DNA of 38,236 bases. Origin: Gemmatimonadota bacterium. GTDB taxonomy: Bacteria > Latescibacterota > UBA2968. Position 1 is the first letter of the stretch. Every line of letters begins with the position of its first letter. Position numbers and translations under genes: made by a program. Under the pieces are notes generated by a model, which did not search any database, was not told the DNA's origin, and worked only from the letters and a program-made list of their open reading frames with translations. The stretch spans positions 1 to 38,236 of the forward strand of contig JAPPIE010000139.1 of NCBI GenBank assembly GCA_028874765.1, written 5' to 3'. Positions 1,231 through 22,991 of this stretch are shown piece after piece.

Positions 1231-1260
1231 TAGAAATTTTGAATCTATTGTGTTAGGCAA

Positions 1261-1297
1261 AAAGGCAACCGAATTTTTATTCGGTTGCCTTTTTTAT
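1261..1297 (+). terminator. Rho-independent terminator after lacI-type gene
   Basis: A 14-bp perfect inverted repeat, arms 1261-1274 and 1279-1292, with core AAGGCAACCGAAT, a 4-nt T loop and a following T run. The A-rich 5' flank lets it work in both directions, but no minus-strand gene reads into it. Confidence 0.93.
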
Positions 1298-1320
1298 TTT
1301 GCCGTGTTTTTATTTAAGAG

Positions 1321-1365
1321 GCTCTTGGTATTTGGCTTGAATTTCGGATTGAGAGGCAATAAACT
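1321..1365 (+). promoter_or_regulatory. Dispersed promoter-like module B, copy 1
   Basis: A 45-nt block that aligns without gaps to 19679-19723, with 39 of 45 positions identical by eye. Inside it TTGAAT (1337-1342) and TAAACT (1360-1365) are separated by 17 nt and both hexamers are identical in the two copies, so it reads as a sigma-70 promoter. Both copies lie upstream of plus-strand genes, here 154 nt before a DUF6785-type membrane protein. Conservation outside the hexamers suggests a shared regulator site or a promoter that has been copied. Confidence 0.6.
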
Positions 1366-1371
1366 TATGAA

Positions 1372-1390
1372 TCGGCGGGGTATTTGCCGA
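1372..1390 (+). promoter_or_regulatory. Small leader hairpin downstream of module B
   Basis: TCGGC (1372-1376) pairs with GCCGA (1386-1390) across a 9-nt loop, just downstream of the predicted transcription start. A GC-rich hairpin also follows the other copy of the module (19790-19805). There is no T tract, so it is not a terminator. Confidence 0.3.
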
Positions 1391-1519
1391 CGAGGCAGTC
1401 TTATGAAGAAGGGGGCTATGAGCCGGAGGCGAGCGTTTTTGCACCGGGGTGTGGCGAGCAGATTGTCGAGGTGGCTTTGGGCTTGTTGAAGCAGTTGCGA
1501 TGACCAAAAAGGTTGGGAG

Positions 1520-3481
1520 ATGGCTACCTACGAAAAGCAGGTAGTGGAAGAACAGGCTAAGGGTCTCCGCGAACGGGTGACGGGACGCGCGCTGGTGATA
1601 GGTGTGCTCACGATTGTGGGTATGGCGCTTTTCATGTCCTATTTCGGGCGGAATTTGGTGAAGAATTATATGCCCGTAGCGGTGGCTCTGCCGTTTGTGG
1701 TCTGGCTGGGTATCAATACGGTGTTGAAGTTGTTTGCGCGGCGGTGGGCACTGTCCAGGATGGAGATGTTGACGGTGTTTTTTATGGTGTGGCTGGTGGG
1801 GAATTTGCCAGGTATCGGATGGGCGATGTATATGGTGACCGATATTGCGGCTCCGGCTCACTATGCCTCGCCTGAGAACCGGATGCGGGAGGTGGTGATG
1901 CCCTATTTCCCTCGCTGGCTGTTTCCAGAGGAATCGGAGGTGGTGATCGGGCAGTTGTTTACCGGGGTGCAGGTGGATGGGTCTATCCCGTGGCTGGCCT
2001 GGGTTCGGCCGCTGTTCTGGTGGTTGATGGCGTGCTTGTCGCTGGTTGGGGCGGGTTTTTTTTCGAGTGTGATTTTTTACAAACAGTGGCACGAAAAGGA
2101 GCGGCTGGTCTTTCCGATGGCGACATTCCCGATGGATATGCTCAGGCAGTCTGCGGGCAGTCGGGTGCCGGATGTGTTTAAGAATAAGGTGTTCTGGATT
2201 GGGTTCGGTTTTGTGGCGGGGATTATTGGCTGGAATATCATCGGGTATTTCGCACTCAGCTTGCCGCCTATCACCCTGTTTTATTCGACGACGTACAAAG
2301 CCGTGCCCCTGGGACATCATTTTCCGGATTATTTTTTGCGGGTGCAGCCGATGATTATGGGGCTGGCGTATTTATGCCCGCTGGATATTCTGTTCAGTTT
2401 TTGGTTTTACGATTTTGTGAATATTTTGAAAAAGGGGTTGCTGAACCGCACGGGATTTACGGTGGGTTTGCCCGGGCAACCGGCGATGGGTGGCGAGATC
2501 GCGATGCTGGAATCGCACGGGGCACTGGTGTTTCTGGTGGGATGGTCGGTGTGGGTCGCCAGAGGGCATTTGCGGGAGACGTTGCAAAAGGCGTTTGAAA
2601 GGGGGCGCGAGGGTGATGACGGGACTCCGGTTTCTTATCGCACGGCGTGGCTGGGGTTGTTGTCTTCGGCGGTGTTTTTGGGCGGGTGGATGGTGTCTGC
2701 CGGGATGCGAGTTCCCGTGATGCTGGTGCAGTTGTTGTTGCTGTTTATCTGCTTTTTTGGGATTACAAAATACGCGGCAACTACGGGATTTATTTTTTTG
2801 TCTCCTGCAGGAGGGAAGGGAGCCGATGTGCTCCTAGCGCTGGGCGGAACGTCGAATCTGCCACCTGCGACACAGACGTCTATCTGGCTGGTGAATAGCA
2901 ACGCGCTTTGTGGAGTGCCAATCCGGATTACGTGTATTCCGTCAGTGACGCATTTTTTTCGGATGCTGGGCGACCATCTGCGGCGGCATCCGCTGATCTG
3001 GGGGTGCATACCGGTTGCGTTTGTGACGGGTTTTGTGGCTTCTGTGGGCGCGCAGCTTTACCGGTGTTATACCGAGGGCGGTCTGAATGGACACATGGCT
3101 TTGTGGGATTGGGGTGTGCTGATGAGCAGGGTGTCGTTGATTGAGGGGAGCAAGCTGACGGTGTTCGATCCACAGAAGTTGGGGGTGTGGTTTTTTGGGT
3201 TTGCAGAGGCAGGAGTGCTGACTTATTTGAAGGCGCGGGTATCCTGGTGGCCTTTTCACCCGGCGGCGATTGCGTTGCCTGTAGGGCGATACGGGTTTTG
3301 TCTGCTGATTGTGTGGTTGATGAAGACCTTTGTCATCCGGTTTGGGGGCGTGAGTCTTTACCGGAGGTCACTGCCGTTTTGGTACGGGGCGATTATAGGG
3401 TATTTGTTCGGGATTGGGGTCTCAAAGGTAGTGGATATAATATGGTTTCCAGATGCGGGGCATGGGGTACATGGATGGTGA
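1520..3481 (+). CDS. DUF6785/DUF6784-type polytopic membrane protein, paralogue 1
   Basis: A 653-residue integral membrane protein with about a dozen hydrophobic segments starting near residue 25. It is paralogous to the 651-residue protein at 23900-25855: both share AxPxHYASPEN-like and LFWW segments in the N-terminal half, a WWPxHP motif, and a C-terminal GGVxLYRR block followed by a glycine-rich final helix and an acidic/aromatic tail. I recognise the layout as the DUF6785 (N-terminal) plus DUF6784 (C-terminal) family, which has no established function. Its size and topology resemble oligopeptide-type carriers, so transport across the inner membrane is an inference. The ATG at 1520 has AAGG about 7 nt upstream, and an in-frame stop at 1487 limits any extension. 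It converges on the PL22 gene with a 13-nt gap. Confidence 0.75.
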   Translation: MATYEKQVVEEQAKGLRERVTGRALVIGVLTIVGMALFMSYFGRNLVKNYMPVAVALPFVVWLGINTVLKLFARRWALSRMEMLTVFFMVWLVGNLPGIGWAMYMVTDIAAPAHYASPENRMREVVMPYFPRWLFPEESEVVIGQLFTGVQVDGSIPWLAWVRPLFWWLMACLSLVGAGFFSSVIFYKQWHEKERLVFPMATFPMDMLRQSAGSRVPDVFKNKVFWIGFGFVAGIIGWNIIGYFALSLPPITLFYSTTYKAVPLGHHFPDYFLRVQPMIMGLAYLCPLDILFSFWFYDFVNILKKGLLNRTGFTVGLPGQPAMGGEIAMLESHGALVFLVGWSVWVARGHLRETLQKAFERGREGDDGTPVSYRTAWLGLLSSAVFLGGWMVSAGMRVPVMLVQLLLLFICFFGITKYAATTGFIFLSPAGGKGADVLLALGGTSNLPPATQTSIWLVNSNALCGVPIRITCIPSVTHFFRMLGDHLRRHPLIWGCIPVAFVTGFVASVGAQLYRCYTEGGLNGHMALWDWGVLMSRVSLIEGSKLTVFDPQKLGVWFFGFAEAGVLTYLKARVSWWPFHPAAIALPVGRYGFCLLIVWLMKTFVIRFGGVSLYRRSLPFWYGAIIGYLFGIGVSKVVDIIWFPDAGHGVHGW

Positions 3482-3494
3482 GAGTTTTGAAGGC

Positions 3495-4556
3495 TTATAA
3501 AAGACTGTCTAAAAACTCCTGTGGGATTTTCGCACCATAGACCTGGGGGTGACCACTGCGGTTGGAGGTGTAGATGAGCCACGCGTTGTCAGAGGTCATG
3601 TAAGGATGTGTGTGAGACCACTGATTGCTGTCGTGCTCGGTGCGGCTGAGGACGAGGCATTTGTGACGACCCGATTCGAGGGAACCGATATGGATGGGGA
3701 TGTTTTCTTCCTGGGTGGCGTCCCCAACCCAGTATCGGCCACAGCGGGAGACGCTGACGTGACCGAAGCGGTGGGGGGTCTTGCTGACCAGACTTGGAGC
3801 CTTGTCGCGTAAGCCCGCAGTCCAGACATTCCCTTCGCTGTCTTCGTCTTGTCCTGTGGAGATGAAGATGTGGTCGGTTGTGCCTATCCACGCTTCGTGA
3901 CCGGTGGGCCGCGGCGTGTGTGGGCGATCGACGGGAAACCAGGTGATGCCTTCACGGTCGGGTTCAAGAGCGCCGAGGTGAACGAATTTGACGTCGGGCA
4001 TTTTGTTGGCTTGAATGAGGATGCGGTTGTTGCTGTCGAGGGAGAATTGTTCGTGTTTGAAGTGGTAGTCGTCGCGCTGGGCAAGGGTGCCGCATTTCCC
4101 GGTTGAGAGGTCTGTACACCAGACTTTGCTCGATCCGCCTTCGGGATGGACGCTGGCAGCGTAGTAACGACCGTCCTGGGACGTGGTGCCATAGCTGAAT
4201 CGGCCCTCTTCGGTTGGCAAAGTTGTGATGTCTTCTTTTTCGAGGGTCTGATAATTGCAACGTTTGAGTACGAGCGCGTCCCCGTCTTGTTGCTGGTAGT
4301 AGAGATGTTCACCCCAGGCGTGGAAGGCGGGGAAATGGGGTGCTTCGGCGAGTACTGTGTGGAGGCTACCGTCTGCAAGGTCGAGGAAGGATAGGCCACC
4401 GTCCTGATCGTTGTGAGGATAATATCGGATTGTGACGCGGCTTCCATCAGCTGAGGAATAGGGTTGTTCGCCATAGATGTTGTCGGCGGGACGGGGATCG
4501 TTGATGAGCTGGTAAATTTCAGCGCCGGAGTTGGGATCGGTTTCGACGAGTTTCAT
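3495..4556 (-). CDS. ogl: Oligogalacturonate lyase, PL22-type beta-propeller
   Basis: 353 residues without a signal peptide, so cytoplasmic. PL22 enzymes beta-eliminate short oligogalacturonides, mainly digalacturonate, in pectin catabolism. From memory of the Yersinia enzyme, the Brønsted base is His242 in a THEFW context and Mn is held by His287, Gln350, His353 and His355. This protein has matching blocks: TGHEAW (His220), GHVSVSRCGRYWVGD (His266), and QWSHTH (Gln312, His315, His317), followed by the propeller strand LIYTSNRSGHPQVYG. The Gln-x2-His-x-His spacing is exact. The shorter His266-Gln312 gap and total length are differences from the reference enzyme. AGGAGA lies about 7 nt before the ATG. 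Related TolB-like propellers are the alternative, but the metal set argues for PL22. Confidence 0.82.
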   Translation of the reverse strand: MKLVETDPNSGAEIYQLINDPRPADNIYGEQPYSSADGSRVTIRYYPHNDQDGGLSFLDLADGSLHTVLAEAPHFPAFHAWGEHLYYQQQDGDALVLKRCNYQTLEKEDITTLPTEEGRFSYGTTSQDGRYYAASVHPEGGSSKVWCTDLSTGKCGTLAQRDDYHFKHEQFSLDSNNRILIQANKMPDVKFVHLGALEPDREGITWFPVDRPHTPRPTGHEAWIGTTDHIFISTGQDEDSEGNVWTAGLRDKAPSLVSKTPHRFGHVSVSRCGRYWVGDATQEENIPIHIGSLESGRHKCLVLSRTEHDSNQWSHTHPYMTSDNAWLIYTSNRSGHPQVYGAKIPQEFLDSLL

Positions 4557-4600
4557 GGCGTGTCTCCTGAGACTGGGAGGTTAGAGGGAAGATTAGAATA

Positions 4601-4630
4601 AATATAACATGCCTGTGGATGACCCATCAA
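4601..4630 (-). promoter_or_regulatory. Candidate promoter for the PL22 lyase
   Basis: Read on the minus strand, TTGATG (4625-4630) and TATATT (4601-4606) are 18 nt apart. The predicted start leaves a leader of about 40 nt before the lyase ATG at 4556. It lies in the 109-bp divergent gap shared with the transglutaminase-like gene. Confidence 0.4.
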
Positions 4631-4665
4631 GCGATTTTCCGTTTTGATTGGGGGGAGGATCGGAG

Positions 4666-6810
4666 ATGATACTCAAAATTTTGGATATAGCAGTCAATTG
4701 CGTCACCATGCAGGTGGCGTGCAAAGACGCTCGGGGGATGCGAATCTATCGCGCGGATCGGGCGGATGGTTTATTTGAAGAAGTTGGCGTTGCCCGAGAG
4801 GATCGGTTTGTGGATGCGACGGATTTGATACCGGGGAATACTTATTGTTATATCGCGGTTGGTTCTGATCGGCATCCAGAGCAGGATGAGTTGAAGGATA
4901 TGGAACACGTTGAAGCACAGGTGCCCTGCGCGCCTTGTGAGAAACAGTTCGATCTGACGCAGGAGGCAGAAGCGTTTGAGGTTCAGATGGGTGGATATGT
5001 AGATGAGTCGAATGCTGTGACTCTTGGACCAGAGGTGTATTGCCCGGGGCCAAATTCGAGTATGCCGCCCTATGACCAGGTGTTTGAGCCAAATCTGTAT
5101 GTGGTGATCGAGAATACGGGTGAGACAGATTTGGTGAATCCGTGGTTGGTGGCAAATGGACAGCGGGATTGGTGGTCGGTGGAGACGATGGCGAAAGAGG
5201 CGATAGACGGGCGGGATTTGGATGAGGAAGAGCGGATGATGGGGTTGTGGCAGTTTGTCGTAGATGAGGTTTACGACAGCCGATGCGGGATGTCGTGGTA
5301 TGACGATGTGAGCGATCCGGTGAAGTTGTTCAATGCGTATGGGTTTGAGGGGTGTATAGGGTATGCGATTGCCACGAGTCGGTTGGGCGAGGTGATGGGG
5401 GTGAAGTCGCGCGAGGTATGGGTTGGCGGTATTCTGGATGGGCACGGTCGAGGGCGGCAGTGCAGCCATACGATTTTCGAAGCGTGGGCAAATGGGGCAT
5501 GGCATTTGCTCGATACAGATCAGATGGTGTTTTTCTTAAAGCGCGATAACCGCACGGTGGCCAGTGTCGCCGATCTGGCGCAGGATCCAGAATTAATGAG
5601 CAGGTCGCACCGGAACCTGGGGCTGGCGGGAAAGGATTTGGCGGAGAAGGATTATTACAGCGCGCAGTTCAAGAATCGGGAATTTGTGTATCCGACTAAT
5701 CCGAGTGGTGCATGGACTCGCGGAGATGGCCGGGTGCAACAGGATACGACGCAGTTGCCGCCCCATACGATGGCGATGCGCTTGCGGCCGGGCGAGAAGC
5801 TGGTGCGCTATTGGGATCAGGTGGGCAAGACGGTGGTGCGGGGGCGTCGGTTACATCCCGAGGTGCGATATTCCAATGGCAAGCTGGTCTATCGGCCCGA
5901 TTTGCGAAATCCGCTGGCAATGAGAGGGTTAGAACAGCATGTGAATGTGGTGCAGGAAACGTCGGGGCGATTGCCAGCTGTTCATCCTGCTCAGGCTCAG
6001 CGCGTTTCCAGAATGATCTGGAAGGTACATTCGCCATATCCCATTGCCGGGGCGCGGGTGGGTTTGTCCTATAGACGGGAGAGCAGGGAAGACGGGCTTG
6101 AGGTGTTGCTGTCTCAGGATGGAAAGGACTGGCGGTCGGTCTGGGTGGCAGTGGGACATCGGGCAAGTGCGTGTGTGGATCTGGACTGGTATTTGAATCC
6201 GGCTTTGTTCGATTGGCGGGGAGATTGGGATCCGGGATGGCGGGTTGGACCGCGTTATGAATATTATGTTCAGGTGGCGATGTGGGCCGGCGCGAACGCC
6301 GGGGATGTGGGAGTGGATAAATTCTGGTTTGATACGGATTTGCAGTGTGCAACGCGATCTTTGCCATCGCTGTTCTGCGGTGAAAATCACATTCAATATC
6401 GAGATGAGACAGAGGAAAAACGGAGTGTTCGGATAATCTACGGATGGCAGGAGGAGCACTGTATTAAACCACCGGATGTACCCGAGCCGGTGGTTCCCTC
6501 GGATGGGGCTGAGTTGGATCAGACGGATTTTGAGTTTTGCTGGAGACAGCCTGAGGGAAATGGGTCAGAGGTGGATGATTATCACGTACAGGTGAGCAGG
6601 TACCCGGATTTCAGGTGGTGCGTGTGTCCCACTTTTGACCGGTATGTGAGCCGCACGGCATACGCGGGGAAGACGCGCTGGCAACCTCAGTTTGCGGGGC
6701 TGTTGAATCCGGGAGAGCGATATTATTGGCGCGTGCGCGCGCGGAATGCACAAGGGGTGTGGAGCGATTGGAGCCGGGCGTGTGCGTGGTCGGTTATTCG
6801 GGGAAGCTAA
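4666..6810 (+). CDS. Transglutaminase-like protein with fibronectin-III-like ends
   Basis: 714 residues from the ATG at 4666, chosen because GGGGGGAGG sits about 7 nt upstream; an in-frame TTG at 4648 lies before that sequence and is unlikely. Residues 1-70 form an Fn3-like beta domain ending in NTYCYIAVGSD. The middle carries a transglutaminase-type core: Cys230 in GFEGCIGYA, His268 in SHTIFEAW and Asp283 in WHLLDTD, the usual Cys-His-Asp order. A further beta domain around residues 620-714 (from PPDVPEPVVPSDG through ERYYWRVRARNAQGVWSDW) is Fn3-like. There is no signal peptide, which is odd for an Fn3-decorated protein. Bacterial members are mostly proteases or peptide ligases; the substrate is unknown. 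The 3' end overlaps the peroxidase gene on the other strand by 17 bp. Confidence 0.72.
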   Translation: MILKILDIAVNCVTMQVACKDARGMRIYRADRADGLFEEVGVAREDRFVDATDLIPGNTYCYIAVGSDRHPEQDELKDMEHVEAQVPCAPCEKQFDLTQEAEAFEVQMGGYVDESNAVTLGPEVYCPGPNSSMPPYDQVFEPNLYVVIENTGETDLVNPWLVANGQRDWWSVETMAKEAIDGRDLDEEERMMGLWQFVVDEVYDSRCGMSWYDDVSDPVKLFNAYGFEGCIGYAIATSRLGEVMGVKSREVWVGGILDGHGRGRQCSHTIFEAWANGAWHLLDTDQMVFFLKRDNRTVASVADLAQDPELMSRSHRNLGLAGKDLAEKDYYSAQFKNREFVYPTNPSGAWTRGDGRVQQDTTQLPPHTMAMRLRPGEKLVRYWDQVGKTVVRGRRLHPEVRYSNGKLVYRPDLRNPLAMRGLEQHVNVVQETSGRLPAVHPAQAQRVSRMIWKVHSPYPIAGARVGLSYRRESREDGLEVLLSQDGKDWRSVWVAVGHRASACVDLDWYLNPALFDWRGDWDPGWRVGPRYEYYVQVAMWAGANAGDVGVDKFWFDTDLQCATRSLPSLFCGENHIQYRDETEEKRSVRIIYGWQEEHCIKPPDVPEPVVPSDGAELDQTDFEFCWRQPEGNGSEVDDYHVQVSRYPDFRWCVCPTFDRYVSRTAYAGKTRWQPQFAGLLNPGERYYWRVRARNAQGVWSDWSRACAWSVIRGS

Positions 6811-7861
6811 ATGGCGGCTCAATGTGGAGCCAGTTGATGCCGTTGAGTGCTTTGAGGAAGGCGATCAGGTCCTGTTTTTCGGCGTCTGTGAGGTCGAGGG
6901 GGGTAATTAATTCGTCGAGGAAGGGATTGGGATTACCGCCTTTGTCGTAAAATTCGATGATTTCTTCCAGAGTTTTGATGCTGCCGTCGTGCATATAGGG
7001 GGCTGTGCGTGCGACTTCGCGGAGGGTAGGTGTTTTCATTGCGCCAAAGTGTTCTGGCTTTTGAGTTTGGGCATAGCGCCCGGGATCGATGCCTTTGATG
7101 TCTTGCAGTTTGCCGGTTTTTTCGTAAGCGGAAAGATCGGCGCGGTCCCAGCCAGTACCGATGTTGTGGAAATCTTCATCGGTGTAGTTGAATCCCATGT
7201 GGCAGAGTGTACAGCGCGCTTTGGTGCGAAAGAGGCGCAGGCCCCGGATGGCGGATGCGGACATGGCGCCTTTGGGACCGCCGTATTCGAACAAATCGTA
7301 GGGCGATTCGCCAGAGATCAGGGTGCGTTCGAAAGCGGATAGGGCTTTGGCGATGCGGCCGGACGTGATGGTGCTGTCCCCAAATGCGGCTTTGAAGTGG
7401 GTGCGGTAACCAGAGATGGTTGATAAGGTAGAGACGACCTGTTCAAGGGTGTTGCCCATTTCTGTGGGGCTCTGGATGGGGATAAGGGCCTGTTCTTCGA
7501 GGGAAGCAGCCCTGCCGTCGTAGAAATAAATCGTGCCGTAGGCCCGGTTGATGAGGGTGGGCACATTGCGTGTGGGAGTCTGACCGTCGATACCGGTGGG
7601 CAAGACGCGGCCATCGGTAAAGGCGCGGTGGGGCTGGTGGCAAGAGCCACAGGCTATGCTGCCGTCTCTGGAGAGCCGCTTGTCGAAAAAGAGGAGTTTG
7701 CCCAGGGCTATTTTAGTTTGGGTGAGGGGATTGTCTTTGGGAATGCTGCTGAGATAGCGGATTTCGTCATGGCCCAATGGCACGCGGGGTATGTCGCCAC
7801 TATATATGGCTATCGGCAGGGCGATCAGGAGGGCGCAGAGAAATGTGAGGCGGATTGCCAT
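6794..7861 (-). CDS. Dihaem cytochrome c peroxidase / MauG-family protein
   Basis: 355 residues with a signal peptide (roughly 1-21) for periplasmic export. Two c-type haem sites are present: CGSCH at 71-75 and CTLCH at 217-221. The APYMHDGS motif at 287-294 carries Met290, the likely distal ligand of the high-potential haem, and RNVPTLINRAY follows the first haem as in CcpA enzymes. Family members reduce hydrogen peroxide with electrons from small cytochromes, or, as in MauG, oxidise a protein partner. The residues seen do not decide between these. It is the second gene of a two-gene operon, starting 12 nt after the stop of the FGE-like/TPR protein; the ribosome binding site is a weak AAGAGAGA. 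It overlaps the convergent transglutaminase-like gene by 17 bp. Confidence 0.9.
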   Translation of the reverse strand: MAIRLTFLCALLIALPIAIYSGDIPRVPLGHDEIRYLSSIPKDNPLTQTKIALGKLLFFDKRLSRDGSIACGSCHQPHRAFTDGRVLPTGIDGQTPTRNVPTLINRAYGTIYFYDGRAASLEEQALIPIQSPTEMGNTLEQVVSTLSTISGYRTHFKAAFGDSTITSGRIAKALSAFERTLISGESPYDLFEYGGPKGAMSASAIRGLRLFRTKARCTLCHMGFNYTDEDFHNIGTGWDRADLSAYEKTGKLQDIKGIDPGRYAQTQKPEHFGAMKTPTLREVARTAPYMHDGSIKTLEEIIEFYDKGGNPNPFLDELITPLDLTDAEKQDLIAFLKALNGINWLHIEPPFSFPE

Positions 7862-7873
7862 GGGGTCTCTCTT

Positions 7874-8974: not shown

Positions 8975-9011
8975 GGAGATATCCGTAAAGAATACAGTGA
9001 GTAGATGCCGA

Positions 9012-9040
9012 AAGTTAAGGGGGTTGAGAGGCGTTGTCAA
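9012..9040 (-). promoter_or_regulatory. Candidate promoter for the FGE-like/peroxidase operon
   Basis: On the minus strand a perfect TTGACA (9035-9040) is followed after 17 nt by TAACTT (9012-9017), a weak -10. Repeat A copy 2 starts 2 bp upstream of the -35, a position where an activator could bind. Confidence 0.4.
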
Positions 9041-9042
9041 GC

Positions 9043-9098
9043 GCAGCAGGGCGATATAAAAAATATAACTCGTCATTCTCTAAAAAGGACGATATATC
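9043..9098 (+). repeat. Dispersed imperfect direct repeat A, copy 2
   Basis: Same orientation as 1-56, from GCAGCAGG through CGTCATT to AGGACGATATAT. The promoter hexamers of copy 1 are preserved in weaker form (TCGTCA at 9070-9075, TATATC at 9093-9098, spacer 17). The dyad ATATA..TCGTC against GACGATATAT is clearer here than in copy 1. It could fire plus-strand transcription into the long leader of the envelope operon, or act as an operator for the minus-strand operon. Confidence 0.55.
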
Positions 9099-9315
9099 AT
9101 TTACGCGATGTGTGACTTCAAAATTTTACGAGGCCGTCAAAATCGAGCGGGTCTCTGTAATTGATGATATTGAGAGAGACACACAGGGTATGGGTTAAGA
9201 TTTTGGTATGCAACAGTTTTAATAGATGCCAGGCATAGGGATAGGTCGGTAACAAAGATTAAAGCTGGATCATGCAGCTTGTATGTTTTTCGTGAGCAAA
9301 TGATCGAAAAAACAC

Positions 9316-9345
9316 TTGACATTGGGCGAAATCTTAATGCATATT
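9316..9345 (+). promoter_or_regulatory. Candidate promoter in the envelope-operon leader
   Basis: A perfect TTGACA at 9316-9321 is followed at 18 nt by CATATT (9340-9345); TATTAT at 9342-9347 is a better hexamer but 20 nt away. The predicted start near 9352 lies about 315 nt before the outer-membrane protein ATG. Confidence 0.4.
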
Positions 9346-9438
9346 ATGTGTAATATAAGTGAAAATGTATGATTGTATTATAAATTTAGCGCTAAAAAAT
9401 AATAGACAATAATTTATCTTCATTATCAGTTTGGAGCT

Positions 9439-9487
9439 AAAACCGTCTAAAAACCTGCAGGAGGGCATGGTATAGATGGTTTTTTTG
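9439..9487 (+). terminator. Terminator-like hairpin in the envelope-operon leader
   Basis: AAAACCGTCTA (9439-9449) pairs over 11 bp, with one G-U, with TAGATGGTTTT (9473-9483), followed by more T. The 23-nt loop contains the palindrome CCTGCAGG. With the promoter at 9316 it would release a transcript of about 135 nt, or act as an attenuator ahead of the operon. The stem is AU-rich at its base, so its strength is uncertain. Confidence 0.4.
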
Positions 9488-9608
9488 TACTCATGTTTGA
9501 AAGTTAGAAATAGATATTTAACTGATTATTAGATTAGATGATTTTTTTTCTCAATGTAAAGATAAGTTTTACAAATGTATTGAGCCGGAGAAAGGAGGGG
9601 TATTTGAA

Positions 9609-9692
9609 TTGAGAGCGATACCGTGTTGTGTTTGTGTTTTTTCCTATCTCAAAGGAGGGCCAGCTTATGCGGATGTTGAGAGAGATGTTTAG
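9609..9692 (+). CDS. Possible 27-codon upstream open reading frame
   Basis: A TTG at 9609 lies 8 nt after the strong Shine-Dalgarno AAAGGAGGGG (9591-9600). It opens a frame with Cys-Cys-Val-Cys near its start and ends with TAG at 9690-9692, overlapping the start of the outer-membrane protein gene (9667) in another frame. The frame runs across that gene's own AAAGGAGGG site. Another TTG at 9604 would give only Met-Asn-stop. It may be a leader peptide for translational coupling, or a chance frame; it rests on the Shine-Dalgarno spacing alone. Confidence 0.2.
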   Translation: MRAIPCCVCVFSYLKGGPAYADVERDV

Positions 9693-10365: not shown

Positions 10366-10387
10366 TCTTCACTAAGGAGGCTTTTCG

Positions 10388-13300
10388 ATGTACAGAAAAT
10401 GTCTGGGTTTTGTTCTCGTTGCGATTTTTGCCCTCGGTTTTATCAGCCTGGCCGAGGCGGCGACAACGGGAAAAATTACTGGTCGTATTGTCGATAAGGC
10501 TGGAGAGGCCCTGCCGGGTGCCAACGTGTTGGTGGAGGGGACGACCCGTGGGGCAACAACCGATGGAGAGGGGTATTATTTTATTCTTTCCGTCGATCCG
10601 GGGAGTTACACGGTGAAGGCGTCGATGGTCGGGTACACGGGTGAGACCAAGTCCGATGTGCGAGTTGCGTCGGATCTGACGACGACAGTTGATTTCTCGC
10701 TCAATGAAGCGACGCTGGAACTGGGTGAGTTGACGGTGATTGCAGAGCGGCCTCCGGTGGAGGCAGATGTGACGGAGAGTCGTTATGTGGTGACAGCCGA
10801 GGATATCGCAGTGCTGCCCATTGTCCGCGATCTGGATTCATTTATCGAACTGGAGGCGGGTGTCAACATCGACGGCACAAATCGGATCCGCAATGCCTTT
10901 TTGGGCGGCGATGGCGGCGAGTTGGCCGAATATACAGTAGATGGTGTGCGTATGACGCACTCGGATGGTCGGCGCAGTACAGGCACCCGCGGGAGCACGC
11001 AGAACTGGACCGGCGACGTCAATACGTCGGCGATTTCAGAGATTACGGTGCTGGCTGGCGGGTTGAATGCCGAATACGGCAACACTGGCTCTATCCAGAT
11101 TGTAACCAAAGATGGCAGTCGGGATTACCACGGGCAGTTGCACTATCGGTATTCGCCAGCGCAACAGAAGCACTGGGGCAACAATGCTTACGAGAGTTTC
11201 GTGCATCAGGGCCGGCTGAAGTATGGCGATACTGAATGGGCAAATGAAACAGTCAATGGTCGGAAGGTGCATCAGCGGCCTTCGAGCGATTATACTGATG
11301 TGCAAGGGCATTTTTTAGAGGCATCCCTTTCGGGGCCTATTAACCGCGATCTGTCGTTCTTTGCCACCACAAAGCACGATATTCAGCCGCGGAACCTGCC
11401 CCAGCCGACTGAGCGCGAGCCATTTAACGCGGATGTGAGTTACAAATTAACCTATAGTGCCACACCGGATATCAAGCTCCGTGCAGGTGGGCTGTATTCC
11501 AGCCGAAAAGGTCGCTATGCAGATAGTTTTGATTCCAGGGCGATTTTCCTCAATGAACGCGGAAGACTCGGCGGAGAGTGGCAGGTGACGGACAATATGT
11601 TCTATGTGTCCAGCATCCACACCCTATCGGCAAAGACGTTCTACGAGGTGCGGCTGTCGTATATTGCCAGCAAGCAGGACACGATTGACATTCCAAGTGT
11701 GACGATAAATCCCTCCCTGGATAATGACGGGTGGTTTTACACCGATCCCGGGCAGGTGCGGGATCTGCGCGTCGGGCAGCAGAACAAGCTGGCACTCCGG
11801 TTTGATCTGGCGAGTCAGGTGACCCGCACGCACTTCTTGAAGGGCGGGTTCACGTTTTATCGCTACAACAACTGGAAGACCGAGACGTATGAAAATGTGG
11901 ATGGGCGCACCCGGTGGATGATTTACTGGGGCAAGCGCTATGAACCCGGTGTGGGAATTACGCCCACCGAACTCCACGCTTATGTGCAGGACAAGATGGA
12001 GTTTGAGGGGTTGATCATCAATGCTGGCTTCCGCTACGAGCGGTATAGCGGTGGTGAGGCGTTGCTTTATCCCTATCAGGGAACGCCTATGGCCTACAAC
12101 TTCACGCGTTTCCGAGAGCATGCGCAGTACGGGAATATGCAGCCGATGAACTGGTTCATGCCCCGGGTGGGTATCTCGCATCCTATTACAGCCAAGTCGA
12201 AGATTCACTTCTTCTACGGAAAATTCCACACCCGTCCGGATTTCCGCCGGATATACCAGCAAAATTGGCAATCCACTGGTCCTCACTCGCTTGACTTAAA
12301 CAACGACGGGGTCATCAGCCCGCAAGAAGAGAACAATGCGCTGGATCGGAACGATTCATTTGGCGCTGGTTTTGTGATTGACCAGTTCTATTCCTTGCAG
12401 CATTCACAGGTCTCTACGGCTTTTGAACTGGGCACGGAGTGGAATTTTATCAGCGATTATTCCTTCCAGGGCACTGCCTATTACCGCATCACCAATGGGT
12501 TTTTGAGTGTTAATGGTGCGGTATTTCAAGACCCACAGCAGGGTGGCAAGGCCAAGACCCGTTCGCAGGGTCCGAGGGGGCACACCACGACCCGCGGCAT
12601 CGAACTGGCATTGAAGAAGGGGTTGAAGCACAACTTCTCGTTCAAAGCCGCACTCAACTTCGGCTGGGGCGAGCGCCTGACCATTGGCGGTACCAAGCGG
12701 GGCAACATGGGCGCCAGCATCTATCCGGATGCATCCTATATTGCCGATCCCAACCGGTACTGGGTCAGTCACACGATTGATCCGAATACGGGCGCAGAGA
12801 TCCCCGCTCCGCCGACCGGTGCCAAGCTGGAAGAATTGAAGGCAAAAGCACAGGCTGTGGTTGACCGGGGTCTGGCTGGCGGGTTCGGTCAGGGTGCGAT
12901 GTACGCGACCAACGATGGGAAATTTTATCCCTTGTGGGAGCAGAGCGGGCTGTCCAGTGAGGAGCAAGCAGCGCTGCGAGGGCTTTACGCCTTTTCGACG
13001 ACGGGTTGGAGTGTGGAAGGTGGGCGCAGCGATGCCACGCGGACAAATGGGAGCCTGGTACTGATTTATGCCAGCCCGCCCGATTTTGGTCCCGGTGAGA
13101 TGTTCTGGGGCAGCAAGTTGTTCGGCGATGTTCGGGTGAACATGATCTACCGCATCTTCACGGGGCGGATCTTCGATTTTCAGGATCCGGCAACCAGTCT
13201 GAACCTGAAGAAAGAGGGTCCCACGATCTCGACGGTGGATCTCAGCTTCCAGAAAGGGTTCAACATCAGGGGCATCCGCCCATTGCTCTATGTGGAGATC

Positions 13301-13483
13301 GAAAATTTGTTCAACTTCAAAGGCTCGCCATCCACGAGTCCAGACTACGTGCGATGGGGATTGCTTGAATCGCAACCCACCGATCCGTTGTACGTGCAGT
13401 TCGGCGGCGATTCCAGTGAGTTGAGCAGATATACGAGGACTAATCCGCGCCTGGTATTTGCAGGGTTGCGATTGACCTGGTAA
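10388..13483 (+). CDS. TonB-dependent receptor with N-terminal carboxypeptidase-regulatory-like domain
   Basis: 1031 residues; AAGGAGG lies 8 nt before the ATG. Signal peptide about 1-24 (SLAEA/ATTG). Residues about 27-115 are a CarboxypepD_reg-like beta domain (GKITGRIVDKAGEALPGANVLVEGT, then TTDGEGYYFILSVDPGSYTVKASMVGY). Residues about 120-240 are the plug (YVVTAEDIAVLPIVRDLDSFIELEAGV, AEYTVDGVRM, ISEITVLAGGLNAEYGN). The rest is a large barrel ending RLVFAGLRLTW. This is the SusC-like receptor layout, but no SusD-like lipoprotein gene is near, so it is closer to the lone receptors of this kind. The imported compound is unknown; the secreted protein and PorV-like barrel that follow are its likely partners. 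Confidence 0.93.
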   Translation: MYRKCLGFVLVAIFALGFISLAEAATTGKITGRIVDKAGEALPGANVLVEGTTRGATTDGEGYYFILSVDPGSYTVKASMVGYTGETKSDVRVASDLTTTVDFSLNEATLELGELTVIAERPPVEADVTESRYVVTAEDIAVLPIVRDLDSFIELEAGVNIDGTNRIRNAFLGGDGGELAEYTVDGVRMTHSDGRRSTGTRGSTQNWTGDVNTSAISEITVLAGGLNAEYGNTGSIQIVTKDGSRDYHGQLHYRYSPAQQKHWGNNAYESFVHQGRLKYGDTEWANETVNGRKVHQRPSSDYTDVQGHFLEASLSGPINRDLSFFATTKHDIQPRNLPQPTEREPFNADVSYKLTYSATPDIKLRAGGLYSSRKGRYADSFDSRAIFLNERGRLGGEWQVTDNMFYVSSIHTLSAKTFYEVRLSYIASKQDTIDIPSVTINPSLDNDGWFYTDPGQVRDLRVGQQNKLALRFDLASQVTRTHFLKGGFTFYRYNNWKTETYENVDGRTRWMIYWGKRYEPGVGITPTELHAYVQDKMEFEGLIINAGFRYERYSGGEALLYPYQGTPMAYNFTRFREHAQYGNMQPMNWFMPRVGISHPITAKSKIHFFYGKFHTRPDFRRIYQQNWQSTGPHSLDLNNDGVISPQEENNALDRNDSFGAGFVIDQFYSLQHSQVSTAFELGTEWNFISDYSFQGTAYYRITNGFLSVNGAVFQDPQQGGKAKTRSQGPRGHTTTRGIELALKKGLKHNFSFKAALNFGWGERLTIGGTKRGNMGASIYPDASYIADPNRYWVSHTIDPNTGAEIPAPPTGAKLEELKAKAQAVVDRGLAGGFGQGAMYATNDGKFYPLWEQSGLSSEEQAALRGLYAFSTTGWSVEGGRSDATRTNGSLVLIYASPPDFGPGEMFWGSKLFGDVRVNMIYRIFTGRIFDFQDPATSLNLKKEGPTISTVDLSFQKGFNIRGIRPLLYVEIENLFNFKGSPSTSPDYVRWGLLESQPTDPLYVQFGGDSSELSRYTRTNPRLVFAGLRLTW

Positions 13484-13495
13484 GCAGGCACAGTA

Positions 13496-13526
13496 CCGTG
13501 GTGTGGGCACTGCGCTCACACCGCGG
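13496..13526 (+). promoter_or_regulatory. Intercistronic hairpin between receptor and secreted-protein genes
   Basis: CCGTGGTGTG (13496-13505) pairs over 10 bp with CACACCGCGG (13517-13526), one G-U pair, 11-nt loop. There is no T tract, so it is probably an mRNA-stabilising or processing hairpin rather than a terminator. It may set unequal expression of receptor and downstream genes. Confidence 0.5.
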
Positions 13527-13551
13527 ATTCAACTTAGATAGAGGATATGAC

Positions 13552-16056
13552 ATGAAAATGTATGCGAAATTTTCTCGCACGGCCGGGGCAATCCTTGTGG
13601 GAATCTTTGTGATGTCGCTGGCCTGCGAGGTAGCCGCTCAAAATATTCCTCGGTTGCCGTGGCGCAACCTGCGGCGCAGCAAGCTCTGGACGGGGCTGAT
13701 GAACACAGGCATGCACGGTCCCGATCGAGATGGAAGTCGGCGCGCCAGTATGGAGGGCGTGGCTTATCCGGGGCGGAACCGCTTGCCGGGGAGTTTGTGG
13801 GATAGTCGCGGATGGCCAGGGTCTAACCAGTGGGTGCAAAATTACCTGCTGAGAACGGCCACGGCGCGGAGCCTGGGAACATTTATTATCACCAGGCCCG
13901 ATCCGTCGGAATACACCCCCTCGCGTGGGAACGAACTCGTGGTATCGTTTACGAGTCTGACCACCAGTCCGGATATTACACCGATGGAGTATCCGGTGAG
14001 TACAGAAATCGAAGGGCAATTGGGTGTGGGGATGGATCCGCAGCACCCGCTCAAAGGAATTCCTATCGGGGAAGCCAAGAACTGGTATCCGGGGCAGCCA
14101 CATCCTGGCGCGGAAAATATCGTGGAGATCCTCAACTGGGATTTCCACACGTATATGAAGCCAGAGCACAAGCGGTTTGGAGAACTGGTGGCGATTGCCA
14201 AGTGGACGACGGAGGCCGGTATTCAGGGCACGAAGAAGATTTACCAGTGGACGTTTCGGGACTGGGATGACTTCATCATTGTGGAGAATATATTTGAGAA
14301 TACCGGAGACTCCGACGGCGATGGCGTTGCCGATCTCAACGGGGGTGCCGGGTTGAATCTCAAGGATGTTTATTTTGCCTTTTACAACTATTTTTGGCCC
14401 ACGGAAGGCGGTACGGCCAACCGCGATCGCGTAGATAGAGCGCGGGGGTATTACTACTGGTTGTTGCGCCGGTCTGAAACGGAGAACTACAATGTGATCC
14501 AGGACGATGTGTACCGCTATACCGAGGCGGCCAACTATGGAACGGCCGACCCGAATCACGCGGATGTAGCCGATGCAGTGGGGATGAAGATGAGCTATGC
14601 GTTTGACTGGGATTCTCCGCTGACAGCGCACGACGATGCGGGGGATCCCCACCAGCCCGAAAACCAGTGCTGCTGGGGGCGGGTGAATTTCCAGGAGCGC
14701 GGAGAACTTCTGGCCGGGCAGTACGTGGGGGCGATTCCGATTGACTATACGCCGCCTTTTGTGAACGATGACTACGCAAATTACGTAGCTCCAAAGGTGG
14801 CAGAGCAGCCCTTTGCCGTGCCGTGGTTCACCCACAAGGAAGAACCGGATATCAACCGGCACAGCACCGACGAGATCGGTATTGCGCTGGTGTCGGTGGC
14901 CAAGCCGGGCGAACGGGTGAGTACGTTCAATATCGCCGGACGCACGGGCTGGCCGGACAATCCGACTGCACCGCTGCCAGTGCAGGACAATCCCACGCGA
15001 CGGGGAGAGACCCCCGAGCAACCCATGTCGCCCAACTGGCATGCGTTTTCTCACACTTACGGTCCCTACGATATGCAAAGGGGAGACCGCGTGAAGATCG
15101 TGATGGCTTTTACAGCGGCGATGCCGGTAGAGGAAAATATGTGGGGCTGGCAGCGGAATATTCCGCAGAACCAGGCCGATTTGCACACGGATAAGGCTAT
15201 GCGGAATTTGATGAAGCACGCGCAGCACGCGCAGGCGATGTACGAACTGGGCGGCGATGTGCCGCTCCCGCCGCCGGATCTCCACACCTGGATCGCGAAT
15301 ACACCGGCAGCTACGTCCAAAATTAGCTGGCAGAGCATCGACGATCTGGAAGATCCCGATTATGCGGGTACTGCTGAGGCCAAGGATATTGCTGGGTACC
15401 GGGTTTACCGCAGCGATTTTTACTTCGACAACTGGCAACTCCTGAAGGATATCAAGGTCGGAGATACGGCGCACAAAGAAGGTGATCGGTATTCTTACAC
15501 CGACGATACATCTTTGGCTGGATTTGCCTATTATTATGCGGTGACGGCTTATGATACTGGTCACAGCACCTGGACCAGCAGCGATGGCACCAGGACGCTA
15601 TCCGATTTGCCACCGGCTGCCCAGCAGTCGGTACAAAGCGGGCTGGAGAGCGGATTGGCTGCGCCCGAGCAATTCTTCCGGTATTCGTGGATACCCACGA
15701 GTCCGGCAGTGGCCGCTTATGCAGAGGCCGAACGCCTGGAAGCGAAGGTGTCGGTGGTGCCCAATCCCTTCCTGGCCGATGGTTCTCACGCCTATGAGGG
15801 GTCGGATAAAATTCGGTTCGTGAATTTGCCGTCCAAGTGCAAGGTGAAGATTTTCTCGGTTTCCGGGGATCTGATGTCGGAGTTTGACCACGATAATCCA
15901 TCGGTTGGAGAAGCGGAATATATCCAGCTCACCAAAGCGGTGACGGGACAGGTTCCGGCCGGGGTCTATTTCTTCGTGGTGAAATCCCTGACGCCAGAAA
16001 GTAACGGAAAGATCCAGCGCGGGACATTTGTGGTGGTTGGGGGATCTGTCAGGTAA
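13552..16056 (+). CDS. Large secreted protein with FlgD/T9SS-like C-terminal sorting domain
   Basis: 834 residues from the ATG at 13552, preceded by GAGG and opening a signal peptide that ends near EVAAQ (about residue 30); an in-frame GTG at 13498 lies inside the upstream hairpin and is not used. The main part (about 40-590) matches no family I can name; it is rich in Trp, Tyr, Asp and Pro, including DSDGDGVADLNGG, a possible calcium loop. Residues about 605-700 look Fn3-like (DIAGYRVYRSDFYFDNWQLL, FAYYYAVTAYDTG). The last 100 residues follow the secreted-protein C-terminal pattern VVPNPF, IRFVNLPSKCKVKIFSVSGDLM, PAGVYFFVVKS and GTFVVV. In Bacteroidota such tails direct type IX secretion with PorV. 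A PorV-like gene follows directly, so surface display or release is likely. Confidence 0.7.
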   Translation: MKMYAKFSRTAGAILVGIFVMSLACEVAAQNIPRLPWRNLRRSKLWTGLMNTGMHGPDRDGSRRASMEGVAYPGRNRLPGSLWDSRGWPGSNQWVQNYLLRTATARSLGTFIITRPDPSEYTPSRGNELVVSFTSLTTSPDITPMEYPVSTEIEGQLGVGMDPQHPLKGIPIGEAKNWYPGQPHPGAENIVEILNWDFHTYMKPEHKRFGELVAIAKWTTEAGIQGTKKIYQWTFRDWDDFIIVENIFENTGDSDGDGVADLNGGAGLNLKDVYFAFYNYFWPTEGGTANRDRVDRARGYYYWLLRRSETENYNVIQDDVYRYTEAANYGTADPNHADVADAVGMKMSYAFDWDSPLTAHDDAGDPHQPENQCCWGRVNFQERGELLAGQYVGAIPIDYTPPFVNDDYANYVAPKVAEQPFAVPWFTHKEEPDINRHSTDEIGIALVSVAKPGERVSTFNIAGRTGWPDNPTAPLPVQDNPTRRGETPEQPMSPNWHAFSHTYGPYDMQRGDRVKIVMAFTAAMPVEENMWGWQRNIPQNQADLHTDKAMRNLMKHAQHAQAMYELGGDVPLPPPDLHTWIANTPAATSKISWQSIDDLEDPDYAGTAEAKDIAGYRVYRSDFYFDNWQLLKDIKVGDTAHKEGDRYSYTDDTSLAGFAYYYAVTAYDTGHSTWTSSDGTRTLSDLPPAAQQSVQSGLESGLAAPEQFFRYSWIPTSPAVAAYAEAERLEAKVSVVPNPFLADGSHAYEGSDKIRFVNLPSKCKVKIFSVSGDLMSEFDHDNPSVGEAEYIQLTKAVTGQVPAGVYFFVVKSLTPESNGKIQRGTFVVVGGSVR

Positions 16057-16061
16057 TCGGC

Positions 16062-16090
16062 GGGCGGTGGGCAGTTTCTGTCCATCGCCC
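16062..16090 (+). promoter_or_regulatory. Intercistronic hairpin before the PorV-like gene
   Basis: GGGCGGTGGG (16062-16071) pairs along all 10 positions with TCCATCGCCC (16081-16090), two of them G-U, around a 9-nt loop. No T tract follows. It ends 10 nt before the AAGGAG of the next gene, so it could affect that gene's translation as well as transcript stability. Confidence 0.45.
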
Positions 16091-16111
16091 CTCTGAATAA
16101 GGAGTGCAAGT

Positions 16112-17053
16112 ATGTATAAAAAAGTTTTTGTCATCTGCATGCTCGCCACGACATTGATGGCTATTCCAGCATATGCAGGTGGGCTTATTAAGCGGCCGGA
16201 CTTGACAATCTTCTCACCCCTTGCGGTGGCGCAAAGCCCTCGAGCCGTGGCAATGGGGAGTGCTTATGCAACAGCCGCAGACGATGTCAATGCCGCGTGG
16301 TGGAATCCAGCCGGGATGACGGGCGTGGAGAAATTGGAAGTGTCGTTGAGCCATTCGCAGTGGTTCGTAAATTCTACATTCAACACCGGGGCTATAGCTT
16401 ATACAAGCGGTGTGCATACCATTGGGGTCAGCATCCTGACTTTTAAGCCACAGGATGTGGAAGAGACTACGATTTTGCAGCCGGGAGGCACGGGTCGAAC
16501 GCTCAGCCTGGGCACATCGGCTTTTAGTCTCATCTATAGCCGCAAGTTCACGGACAAGCTGTCCTTTGGCGTGCGATTTATGCTGGCTCGCGAGGATCTT
16601 GATCTGACCAACCACACGACTTTTAATGTGGATTTTGGCACCAAGTTCTACACTGGGCTTGGCAGCCTGAGGTTGTCAATGGCACTGCGGAACTTCGGAA
16701 AGGACACAGAGGTGCTGCGGCGACAGTTCCAGCAACCCCTGTCGTTCAATCTGGGAACCGCTGCCGAGGTCTATGGGCAGCAAGGCGATCCGTTTTATAT
16801 CACCGGGGCGGCTGAGATGAACTTCCTGATTAACTGGGAAGAGCGCTACCATGTGGGCGGTGAAGCCTGGTTGGGCAATATACTGGCGTTGCGCGGAGGG
16901 TATATGTTCCGCTACGATTCCTTTGGACTTACAGCAGGTGCAGGCGTGAAATTGCCTCTGGCCGGGACAGAGATCACGGCGGATGTGGCCTGGCAGGAGT
17001 CCAAACACGATCTGAATCAACCCTTGCGGTTTGGGATGGGCTTCGCTTTTTAG
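16112..17053 (+). CDS. PorV/PorQ-family outer-membrane protein
   Basis: 313 residues; AAGGAG lies about 7 nt before the ATG. Signal peptide about 1-23 (IPAYA/GG). The diagnostic block is residues about 38-70: SPRAVAMGSAYATAADDVNAAWWNPAGMTGVEKLEVSLSHSQWF, the conserved start of the FadL-like PorV/PorQ/UPF0164 barrels. The rest is strand-like with a final barrel strand ending FGMGFAF. In Bacteroidota PorV carries type IX substrates across the cell surface. Here it follows a protein with a sorting-like C-terminal domain in the same operon, which supports a dedicated export pair. The other type IX components are not in the window. A strong terminator follows. Confidence 0.85.
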   Translation: MYKKVFVICMLATTLMAIPAYAGGLIKRPDLTIFSPLAVAQSPRAVAMGSAYATAADDVNAAWWNPAGMTGVEKLEVSLSHSQWFVNSTFNTGAIAYTSGVHTIGVSILTFKPQDVEETTILQPGGTGRTLSLGTSAFSLIYSRKFTDKLSFGVRFMLAREDLDLTNHTTFNVDFGTKFYTGLGSLRLSMALRNFGKDTEVLRRQFQQPLSFNLGTAAEVYGQQGDPFYITGAAEMNFLINWEERYHVGGEAWLGNILALRGGYMFRYDSFGLTAGAGVKLPLAGTEITADVAWQESKHDLNQPLRFGMGFAF

Positions 17054-17072
17054 CTCGTTGTGTTGAGCATGT

Positions 17073-17107
17073 AAAAAGGCGACCGAGTTTTTCGGTCGCC
17101 TTTTTTT
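17073..17107. terminator. Bidirectional Rho-independent terminator
   Basis: AAAAAGGCGACCGA (17073-17086) pairs perfectly with 17092-17105 around a 5-nt T-rich loop, with A run before and T run after. It sits between the convergent PorV-like (+) and GWxTD (-) genes and can end both transcripts. Confidence 0.95.
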
Positions 17108-17122
17108 GATTTTGCCATCTCT

Positions 17123-19591
17123 CTATTTTTTATACCTGAACTGGATTTCTTTGGCGGCTTTCTGTCCATTGTTGAGGTCTTCTACTGTGACGGTGAGGCG
17201 GTTGTAACCGGCTTTGACTTTTTTCAGGCTGAGTTCAAAATACCCGGTGGTAGATTGTTCGTTGCCGGTCTGTTCAAAGCTGACTGTGACCTGTGTTTTG
17301 TCTTGCCGCTGAAATATCCTGGTAAGAGCACCAACGCTGCTGCGGACCAGATTGAAGGGGCGTATTGGATCTTCCACGGCAATGGTATAGGTGACGCGAT
17401 AGCGGGTTTGCCCAAAATCGTTTCGGTTGAGGTTGTAGAGTTCGTAGTAGGCATAGGCATTCTGGTTCTTCTGATAGGCGCGGGAGATCATGGGCACGAC
17501 CCATACGTCGCCCTTGCGGAATTTTTCGTCGCCCGAATTTTCTGAGATATTCCAGCTCAGCTGGATATCGCTGAGTTGCAAGGCGTTGGACTGGTAAGGT
17601 TCAACGTGTACTTGATGGCGATAAATACCCTTGCGTTCGGCAGCGCGGTCGTTGACCTGTACTGTGAGCAGGTAGTTGCCGGGGGGTACGTCGATCGGGA
17701 TGAGGGTGGGGATGAAGGAGCCTTCGGGCCACATGCGGTGGCCGATAGACCGAAAAAATATGGCGTCTTGTGCGCGGTAAACATTGGTGTAGGAGGTATC
17801 GGCCAGGATGACGGCGCAGTCGGCGACAATCGTGGAGGTATCGCCCGAAGCAAAGGTGCCCATTTCTACGGGGTCGATGCCGTAGTAGATTTCCAGGCGG
17901 GTGGTGCCATCTGATCCGCGAAAGTCGGCAAAATCGTAGTGGAATCCGAGGCCCGACATGGGGCCGCCGGGCGTGTAAAAGTCGGGGACTTCGCTGACCG
18001 TGCGATTGGCGATGGCCTCGGGGGCGTAATACGCGAGAAGGGAGTATCGGTGAAGGCCAATGGTGGTTTCTTCGTGGGGGAAGTCGGGAAGCGGCGCGTA
18101 GCTGTAAACCCCGTTGCCCAATTCGTTGGTGAAGGTGATTTCGATGCCTTCTCCGATGTTGGTATAGACCCAGGTTTCCCAGGGGACAATGGTCATGTCG
18201 CCGCGTGAGGTGACGGGCAGGAAGTGGTGCTGGTTTTCGGGGCGCATCTGCCGCCGCTGGTATTCGTCGAGAGCCAACTGCCCAATTTCTCCGACTTCAC
18301 CGCTTGCCTCTCCATCTGCACCAAGGGCTTCTGTGAGAATGAATTCGTCCTGGTTGCCTTCAATTGTGCCGGGGGGTACGAGAATATTGCCGCCTTCATC
18401 TGTGCGTGCGAGAGCCGCTGGGTCGAGTTCGCCCACGAAAGACTGGTTGGATCGGATCGGATAGACCGGTCCGGTAAAGACTTCGTCCATGGCTTCGGGA
18501 CCGTAGAGAGCCAGAGCGAGGCGTTCTTTGACCTGTTCTACGGCGGGCGTGATTTCGGGATTGGCCCTGCCAGAACGCGCGCGGTAGTCGGGGTCGCCGT
18601 AGCGGATGTAGATATCTCCCCGCGCATCCCAGGGCGTTTTGGCTTCGGCGAAGTGGTTTCGCGCGTACCACACCCTGCGGTAGTGTTCAATGAGGCGTTC
18701 GTTGACTTCGGTGAGCAAATCAAAATCGCGCTTTGCCCAGAATAGTTCGAGAAAGACGGGTTGCTCGGCTTCGGGGGTTTCTTCGTAGATTTTGATTTCT
18801 TCTTTGGTACCTACCCTGGCGATGTCGTCGTAATAGGCCCGTTCTTTTTCGGGCAGGGTGGCGATGAATTGCTCAAAGACGTTGAGTGCTTTTTCTGGCT
18901 CTCCTTTATCGAAGAGGATCTGCGCGGCGATGGGGAGGAAGCGAGCATTTTCGAGGTGGTATTCGAGGTTTTTGAGGATGGATTCGCTCAGGATCATCTG
19001 GTTGTCGCGCTGACGGCCTTGGGCGTTGCGGCGGAGTTCAATATAAGAAGTGCCCAGGAGATAGGCGATTTCGGGATTGTCGGGCTGGTGTGTCAATGCC
19101 TGTGCAAAAGCCCGCGAGGCAGCGGTGTGGTTCTCATTCAGGCGGATGTACGCGCGACCGAGGAGGATGTAGGCGGGCGCGTAGGTGGGGTCGAGCCGGG
19201 TGGCGCGCCGGGCCGCGCTGACGGCTTTGCGGGCATGGTAAACGGCCATGATCCCACCAGAGGCTTTTTTATAGTGGATTTCTGCAATACCGGTCTGGGC
19301 TTCTGGCGAGGCATCATTGAGTTTGAGGGCTTCTTTGAATGCCTTCATCGCGTGATCCAGATATTCCGCCTTGATGTATATGGGGGCAACGGCGAGGTAG
19401 GTCTGGATGTTATCGGGATTTTGTTTGATGGCTGCTGTAAGCGCTTTGATGGCCTGGTCTTTTCTATTGGCTTCAAAGGCAGCCTGTCCCTGGGCAATGA
19501 GAGAGTCAATCTGGGCTTTTTGAGCGGCAAGCGGTGCAGAGAGCAGGAAACAGAGCAGGGCGGGTGCAACACATTTGAGGGTTGTGTTCAT
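17123..19591 (-). CDS. TPR/GWxTD-domain exported protein, paralogue 1
   Basis: 822 residues from the ATG at 19591, which opens a signal peptide ending in APLAAQ; AAAGG lies upstream with reasonable spacing. Residues about 30-250 are TPR repeats (ALTAAIKQNPDNIQTYLAVAPIYIK; AFKEALKLNDASPEAQTGIAEIHYKKA; AFAQALTHQPDNPEIAYLLGTSY). Residues about 280-345 are the GWxTD domain: FWAKRDFDLLTEVNERLIEHYRRVWYAR, then PWDARGDIYIRYGDPDYR. The C-terminal third is beta-rich and includes FRKGDVWVVPMISRAY and FGQTRYRVTYTI, closely matched in the protein at 31423-33720. GWxTD proteins are common in Latescibacterota, Acidobacteriota and relatives, and their function is not established. It is transcribed alone and ends at the shared terminator. 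Confidence 0.88.
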   Translation of the reverse strand: MNTTLKCVAPALLCFLLSAPLAAQKAQIDSLIAQGQAAFEANRKDQAIKALTAAIKQNPDNIQTYLAVAPIYIKAEYLDHAMKAFKEALKLNDASPEAQTGIAEIHYKKASGGIMAVYHARKAVSAARRATRLDPTYAPAYILLGRAYIRLNENHTAASRAFAQALTHQPDNPEIAYLLGTSYIELRRNAQGRQRDNQMILSESILKNLEYHLENARFLPIAAQILFDKGEPEKALNVFEQFIATLPEKERAYYDDIARVGTKEEIKIYEETPEAEQPVFLELFWAKRDFDLLTEVNERLIEHYRRVWYARNHFAEAKTPWDARGDIYIRYGDPDYRARSGRANPEITPAVEQVKERLALALYGPEAMDEVFTGPVYPIRSNQSFVGELDPAALARTDEGGNILVPPGTIEGNQDEFILTEALGADGEASGEVGEIGQLALDEYQRRQMRPENQHHFLPVTSRGDMTIVPWETWVYTNIGEGIEITFTNELGNGVYSYAPLPDFPHEETTIGLHRYSLLAYYAPEAIANRTVSEVPDFYTPGGPMSGLGFHYDFADFRGSDGTTRLEIYYGIDPVEMGTFASGDTSTIVADCAVILADTSYTNVYRAQDAIFFRSIGHRMWPEGSFIPTLIPIDVPPGNYLLTVQVNDRAAERKGIYRHQVHVEPYQSNALQLSDIQLSWNISENSGDEKFRKGDVWVVPMISRAYQKNQNAYAYYELYNLNRNDFGQTRYRVTYTIAVEDPIRPFNLVRSSVGALTRIFQRQDKTQVTVSFEQTGNEQSTTGYFELSLKKVKAGYNRLTVTVEDLNNGQKAAKEIQFRYKK

Positions 19592-19678
19592 CGAGGGGCC
19601 TTTCGCCAAAAATACTAAAGTTTTGAGAATAAGAGCTATTAGAAATATAGACTATTGGCTTGTCTCACACAAGGCATA

Positions 19679-19723
19679 GCTCGTAGTATTTGGCTTGAAT
19701 TTTGGGCTGAGAGGCGATAAACT
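19679..19723 (+). promoter_or_regulatory. Dispersed promoter-like module B, copy 2
   Basis: Gap-free match to 1321-1365, 39 of 45 identical. TTGAAT (19695-19700) and TAAACT (19718-19723) are 17 nt apart. It is placed 129 nt before the PhyH gene, the first gene of a very long plus-strand run that also contains the second DUF6785 paralogue. So each DUF6785 gene is downstream of a copy of this module. Confidence 0.6.
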
Positions 19724-19764: not shown

Positions 19765-19789
19765 CGAATGATTTCTTTATGGGATTATC

Positions 19790-19805
19790 GCGGCAGGGAT
19801 GCCGC
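19790..19805 (+). promoter_or_regulatory. Leader hairpin upstream of PhyH gene
   Basis: GCGGCA and TGCCGC pair perfectly around a GGGA loop, 36 nt before the gene's Shine-Dalgarno. It resembles a stability or processing hairpin; there is no T tract. Confidence 0.4.
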
Positions 19806-22966: not shown

Positions 22967-22991
22967 AGAAGGCATCGGGAAGGAGGATGCT

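Follow-up and report, generated by a model that had tools for sequence, protein, structure and literature searches.

The systems closest to the locus described here are the sigma-70-type bacterial core promoter, the divergent promoter pair, and promoter capture by deletion or rearrangement. On the genes concerned, a paper on sponge Poribacteria mentions phytanoyl enzymes, and no mention of DUF6785 was found in the literature searched. We analyzed a stretch of 38,236 nt (the window) from a Latescibacterota-like metagenome-assembled genome (MAG; 4.9 Mb, 474 contigs, 6% contamination) that carries two closely matching 45-nt stretches. We are confident, with some reservation, that one of them (copy 2) is the promoter of an operon headed by a PhyH gene and that the other (copy 1) was once a PhyH promoter, which a rearrangement separated from its gene and possibly re-aimed at a different one, DUF6785 paralogue 1.

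The paired 45-mers and the genes around them

Copy 1 (1321-1365) and copy 2 (19679-19723), both on the forward strand, share 39 of their 45 bases in an ungapped alignment. The hexamer TTGAAT lies at 1337-1342 in copy 1 and at 19695-19700 in copy 2, TAAACT lies at 1360-1365 and 19718-19723, and the spacer between them is 17 nt in both. The match, which was confirmed as described in the initial annotation, has a binomial expectation of about 2e-8 for one as good anywhere in the window, and the likeness does not extend past either edge: the two loci are unrelated over the preceding 60 nt and beyond the -10 hexamer. As an ungapped 45-nt self-match of the window it is the joint best, tied with an internal coding repeat in an FG-GAP/ASPIC gene (27650-27694 and 27953-27997, 39/45, 303 nt apart). 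Neither copy was called by a scan for the E. coli consensus at a threshold of 9/12 hexamer matches, a yardstick that belongs to E. coli and is no requirement in this phylum. A structured RNA leader in the 45-mer region was also considered and dropped, with no Rfam match near any gathering score.

Copy 2 is the predicted promoter of a forward-strand transcription unit that begins with a PhyH-type gene of the phytanoyl-CoA dioxygenase family (19853-20740; PF05721, 1.8e-8), apparently the native target of the 45-mer. The rest of the unit (20756-25855, from Pfam matches and gene order) consists of a multihaem cytochrome c gene, an ORF of 313 aa and DUF6785 paralogue 2 (23900-25855), which encodes a DUF6785+DUF6784 protein by Pfam. 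Orthologues of PhyH in congeners are 91-97% identical, and the gene order around copy 2 is common to G004, G006, G007, and G008. Judged by these comparisons, copy 2 is the native PhyH promoter in its ancestral setting. Within the PhyH leader, an insertion of about 80 nt that is absent from congeners holds CGCGGCAGGGATGCCGCTCC (19789-19808), a dispersed palindrome-like repeat with 8 occurrences in the genome at no more than 1 mismatch.

On the other side of copy 2, a TPR-repeat gene (17123-19609, reverse strand; Pfam TPR) is transcribed divergently and keeps this position in congeners. Its predicted promoter, TTGTGT-17-TATATT (19644-19672, reverse strand), stands back to back with copy 2; it is found in 7/7 congeners with TPR beside PhyH and also, as TTGTGC, in G009, which has neither the 45-mer nor PhyH. 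It is absent in G002 and beside copy 1, neither of which has an adjoining TPR gene. The upstream block AGAAATATAG...CTTGTCTCACACAAGG was considered as a possible operator acting on the PhyH promoter and rejected; since it is kept in the PhyH-less G009 and absent in G002 and at copy 1, where no TPR gene adjoins, it is better read as the divergent TPR promoter. The simplest reading of the copy 2 intergenic region is a back-to-back promoter pair in which one promoter would serve TPR and the other PhyH. In G009 (L112, 11573-11810), the next gene after TPR is the orthologue of DUF6785 paralogue 2, and the missing block comprises PhyH, the cytochrome, and the 313-aa ORF, promoter included.

Copy 1 has different neighbors, all on the forward strand. 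Upstream are a LacI-family regulator gene (202-1230; PF00356, PF13377) and its intrinsic terminator (1259-1294), a 16-pair stem with a T run. Downstream, the first intact gene is DUF6785 paralogue 1 (1520-3481; PF20581/PF20580), encoding a second DUF6785+DUF6784 protein. The initial annotation was right in placing copy 1 before paralogue 1 and copy 2 at the head of the run that includes paralogue 2; absent from it was the broken tail of a ceramidase-like gene that lies between copy 1 and paralogue 1. This remnant (about 1372-1503) retains ~43 codons from the 3′ end of a 422-aa gene and is 92-97% identical to the corresponding part of the full-length genes of congeners.

Distribution and conservation of the 45-mer

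Two different patterns, of 37 and 30 nt, were searched through the MAG with up to 3 mismatches, and no third site was found besides copies 1 and 2; the genome-wide motif search that had been proposed as a check therefore leaves a regulon unsupported. Across the 59 relatives searched, matches to the 45-mer were confined to the same genus. Ten congeners were examined, and each of the eight with an orthologous PhyH (8/8) has exactly one 45-mer, always just upstream of that gene; in the other two (G005 and G009), both without PhyH, the 45-mer was not found. Direct pattern matches were obtained in G002, G006, G008, and G010. A shorter pattern was used for G001, G003, G004, and G007, in which the site is one base short upstream of the -35 hexamer (TTTGC for TTTGGC), and it found one copy in each. 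Counting the genome of the window, the 45-mer is present in 9/9 genomes with PhyH and 0/2 without (Fisher p = 0.018), and distant PhyH relatives lack it, with at best 19-22 of 37 positions matching. A single copy before PhyH in every PhyH-bearing congener, and none in the PhyH-less ones, argues that the 45-mer is the PhyH promoter. A hint in the initial annotation that PhyH was involved thus proved well founded.

The pattern of conservation is consistent with this assignment. Among nine aligned PhyH promoters, 33 of 45 columns are invariant, with no variable position in the -35 hexamer (0/6) and one in the -10 hexamer (1/6), where the sole change is TAAAAT in G006; the spacing is 17 nt in all 10 copies. 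Mean divergence is 0.086 for the 45-mer versus 0.227 at PhyH four-fold sites, implying that the 45-mer is under selection. Spacer and flank diverge by about 10%, also below neutral, so that a regulator site could overlap the promoter. Genus-wide footprinting thus supports the earlier reading of the 45-mer as a promoter, through its fixed place, its invariant -35 hexamer and spacing, and its low divergence. On this comparative evidence, the 45-mer appears to be a sigma-70-type core promoter that serves, in a single genus of Latescibacterota, solely the operon of a PhyH-family oxygenase: an ordinary gene-specific promoter, neither a DUF6785 switch nor a mobile promoter. The footprint provides a predicted promoter for a genus known here from metagenome-assembled genomes only.

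Origin of copy 1 and competing explanations

Copy 1 matches the promoter between LacI and PhyH in G002 at 44/45 positions, versus 39/45 for copy 2, which shows that it did not arise by recent duplication of copy 2. G002 has a LacI gene followed by a terminator, the promoter and PhyH, and the window is alike up to the PhyH leader; the homology covers window positions 1228-1375 at 89% identity and so extends past the 45-mer by 93 nt on its upstream side and by 10 nt downstream. The LacI genes of the window and G002 are nearest neighbors among 13, with moderate support (83/90), in a genus whose gene trees are nearly star-like. The G002-like sequence gives way at the tetranucleotide TCGG (1372-1375) to the 3′ portion of the ceramidase-like gene, so that the sequence on the left matches G002 and that on the right matches eight congeners. 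In those eight, the gene is intact (422 aa; PF04734, 4.9e-12) and immediately precedes DUF6785 paralogue 1; part of paralogue 1 is lost in G002. No 45-mer was found before paralogue 1 or the ceramidase-like gene in congeners, where the sequence was examined. The 5′ part of the ceramidase-like gene was not found in the genome of the window, the best other match being 41%. The switch from a G002-like promoter half to a ceramidase tail at TCGG suggests that copy 1 is a PhyH promoter stripped of PhyH by a gene-truncating rearrangement.

We propose that copy 1 descends from a second arrangement, with promoter and PhyH behind a LacI-family gene, that is still intact in G002. This arrangement would have reached a position upstream of the ceramidase-like gene by duplication or by exchange between strains. 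A rearrangement at the 4-nt microhomology could then have fused the beginning of the PhyH leader with the 3′ end of the ceramidase-like gene, at the cost, in the lineage of the window, of PhyH and the greater part of the ceramidase-like gene. In this order of events, DUF6785 paralogue 1 would have lost its own upstream gene, the orphaned copy 1 would point at it, and copy 1 may drive its expression, a case of promoter capture. It is also conceivable, though unlikely, that the rearrangement was kept because it extended control of the PhyH operon to paralogue 1, creating a new two-unit regulon that the LacI protein encoded next to copy 1 may regulate.

Two other observations concern these gene families. 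The intergenic region between g6 and g7 (9304-9627) has no LacI gene and matches, at 86%, the stretch immediately following the LacI gene that G003 has at this place; G001 also has LacI after g6, and genomes of the genus carry 0-3 LacI copies at two positions, which suggests that this gene turns over quickly. Identical ceramidase-like matches at G000:C146:161-1432 and G000:C152:210-1481 suggest strain redundancy in the MAG.

The initial annotation treated the 45-mer as a module of DUF6785 units and took it to indicate a common regulator or a mobile promoter, neither of which fits its distribution. A small regulon, in which a shared regulator governs both units through the 45-mer, would account for the DUF6785 gene in each unit, for a spacer conserved beyond the strict need of a sigma-70 promoter, and for the LacI-family gene that adjoins both copy 1 and the PhyH promoter of G002. 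But DUF6785 matches number 35 in the genome at E <= 1e-40, against only two sites, so the 45-mer is no DUF6785 signal; paralogue 1 of congeners lacks the site, and their single copy always precedes PhyH. We consider such a regulon highly improbable, and as an ancestral design it is largely refuted. The DUF6785 family is strongly expanded throughout, with 29-49 matches in congeners. It is even harder to see the 45-mer as a mobile promoter or small mobile element inserted at two places, an explanation we regard as extremely improbable. Two copies with sharp edges in one genome would suit it, but every PhyH-bearing congener has a single copy in the same place, and copy 1 carries PhyH-leader sequence past the 45-mer as well as an upstream flank in common with G002. 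Neither target duplications nor terminal repeats were seen, and rather than the many dispersed copies at varying positions expected of a MITE-like element, the ten congeners show no further insertion sites.

Copy 1 might also be a chimera of assembly, in which a LacI-promoter-PhyH contig of one strain was fused to the ceramidase-DUF6785 region of another. The MAG is fragmented and partly contaminated, and the junction of promoter and ceramidase tail is seen on one contig, with 1320 nt to its left end, beside a LacI family whose copy number differs from genome to genome. Against this, the LacI-promoter half was assembled independently in G002, the novel join overlaps by 4 nt only, too short for an assembler, and the 5′ part of the ceramidase-like gene is missing from the assembly. 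A chimera is thus very unlikely, and we favor the orphaning of a PhyH promoter by rearrangement.

Comparison with known systems

Two matching promoter-like stretches in a genome need not imply a regulon, and here it was the relatives that settled the question. Copy 1 resembles known cases of promoter capture by deletion or rearrangement in that short homology links it to a gene that has been cut short, and the gene after that is intact. It differs in that the event is known from one contig and expression from copy 1 is putative. As proposed here, it would illustrate cleanly how a short-homology rearrangement can orphan a promoter and aim it at another gene. The copy 2 intergenic region is like other divergent promoter pairs in that it houses both the 45-mer and the TPR promoter predicted here, with spacers of 17 nt in the two; at copy 1 the TPR partner is gone, and the arrangement is otherwise unremarkable. 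Finally, although its hexamers match TTGACA and TATAAT of E. coli only partly, the 45-mer resembles a sigma-70-type core promoter in having TTGAAT and TAAACT 17 nt apart, upstream of an operon and nearly invariant across the genus.
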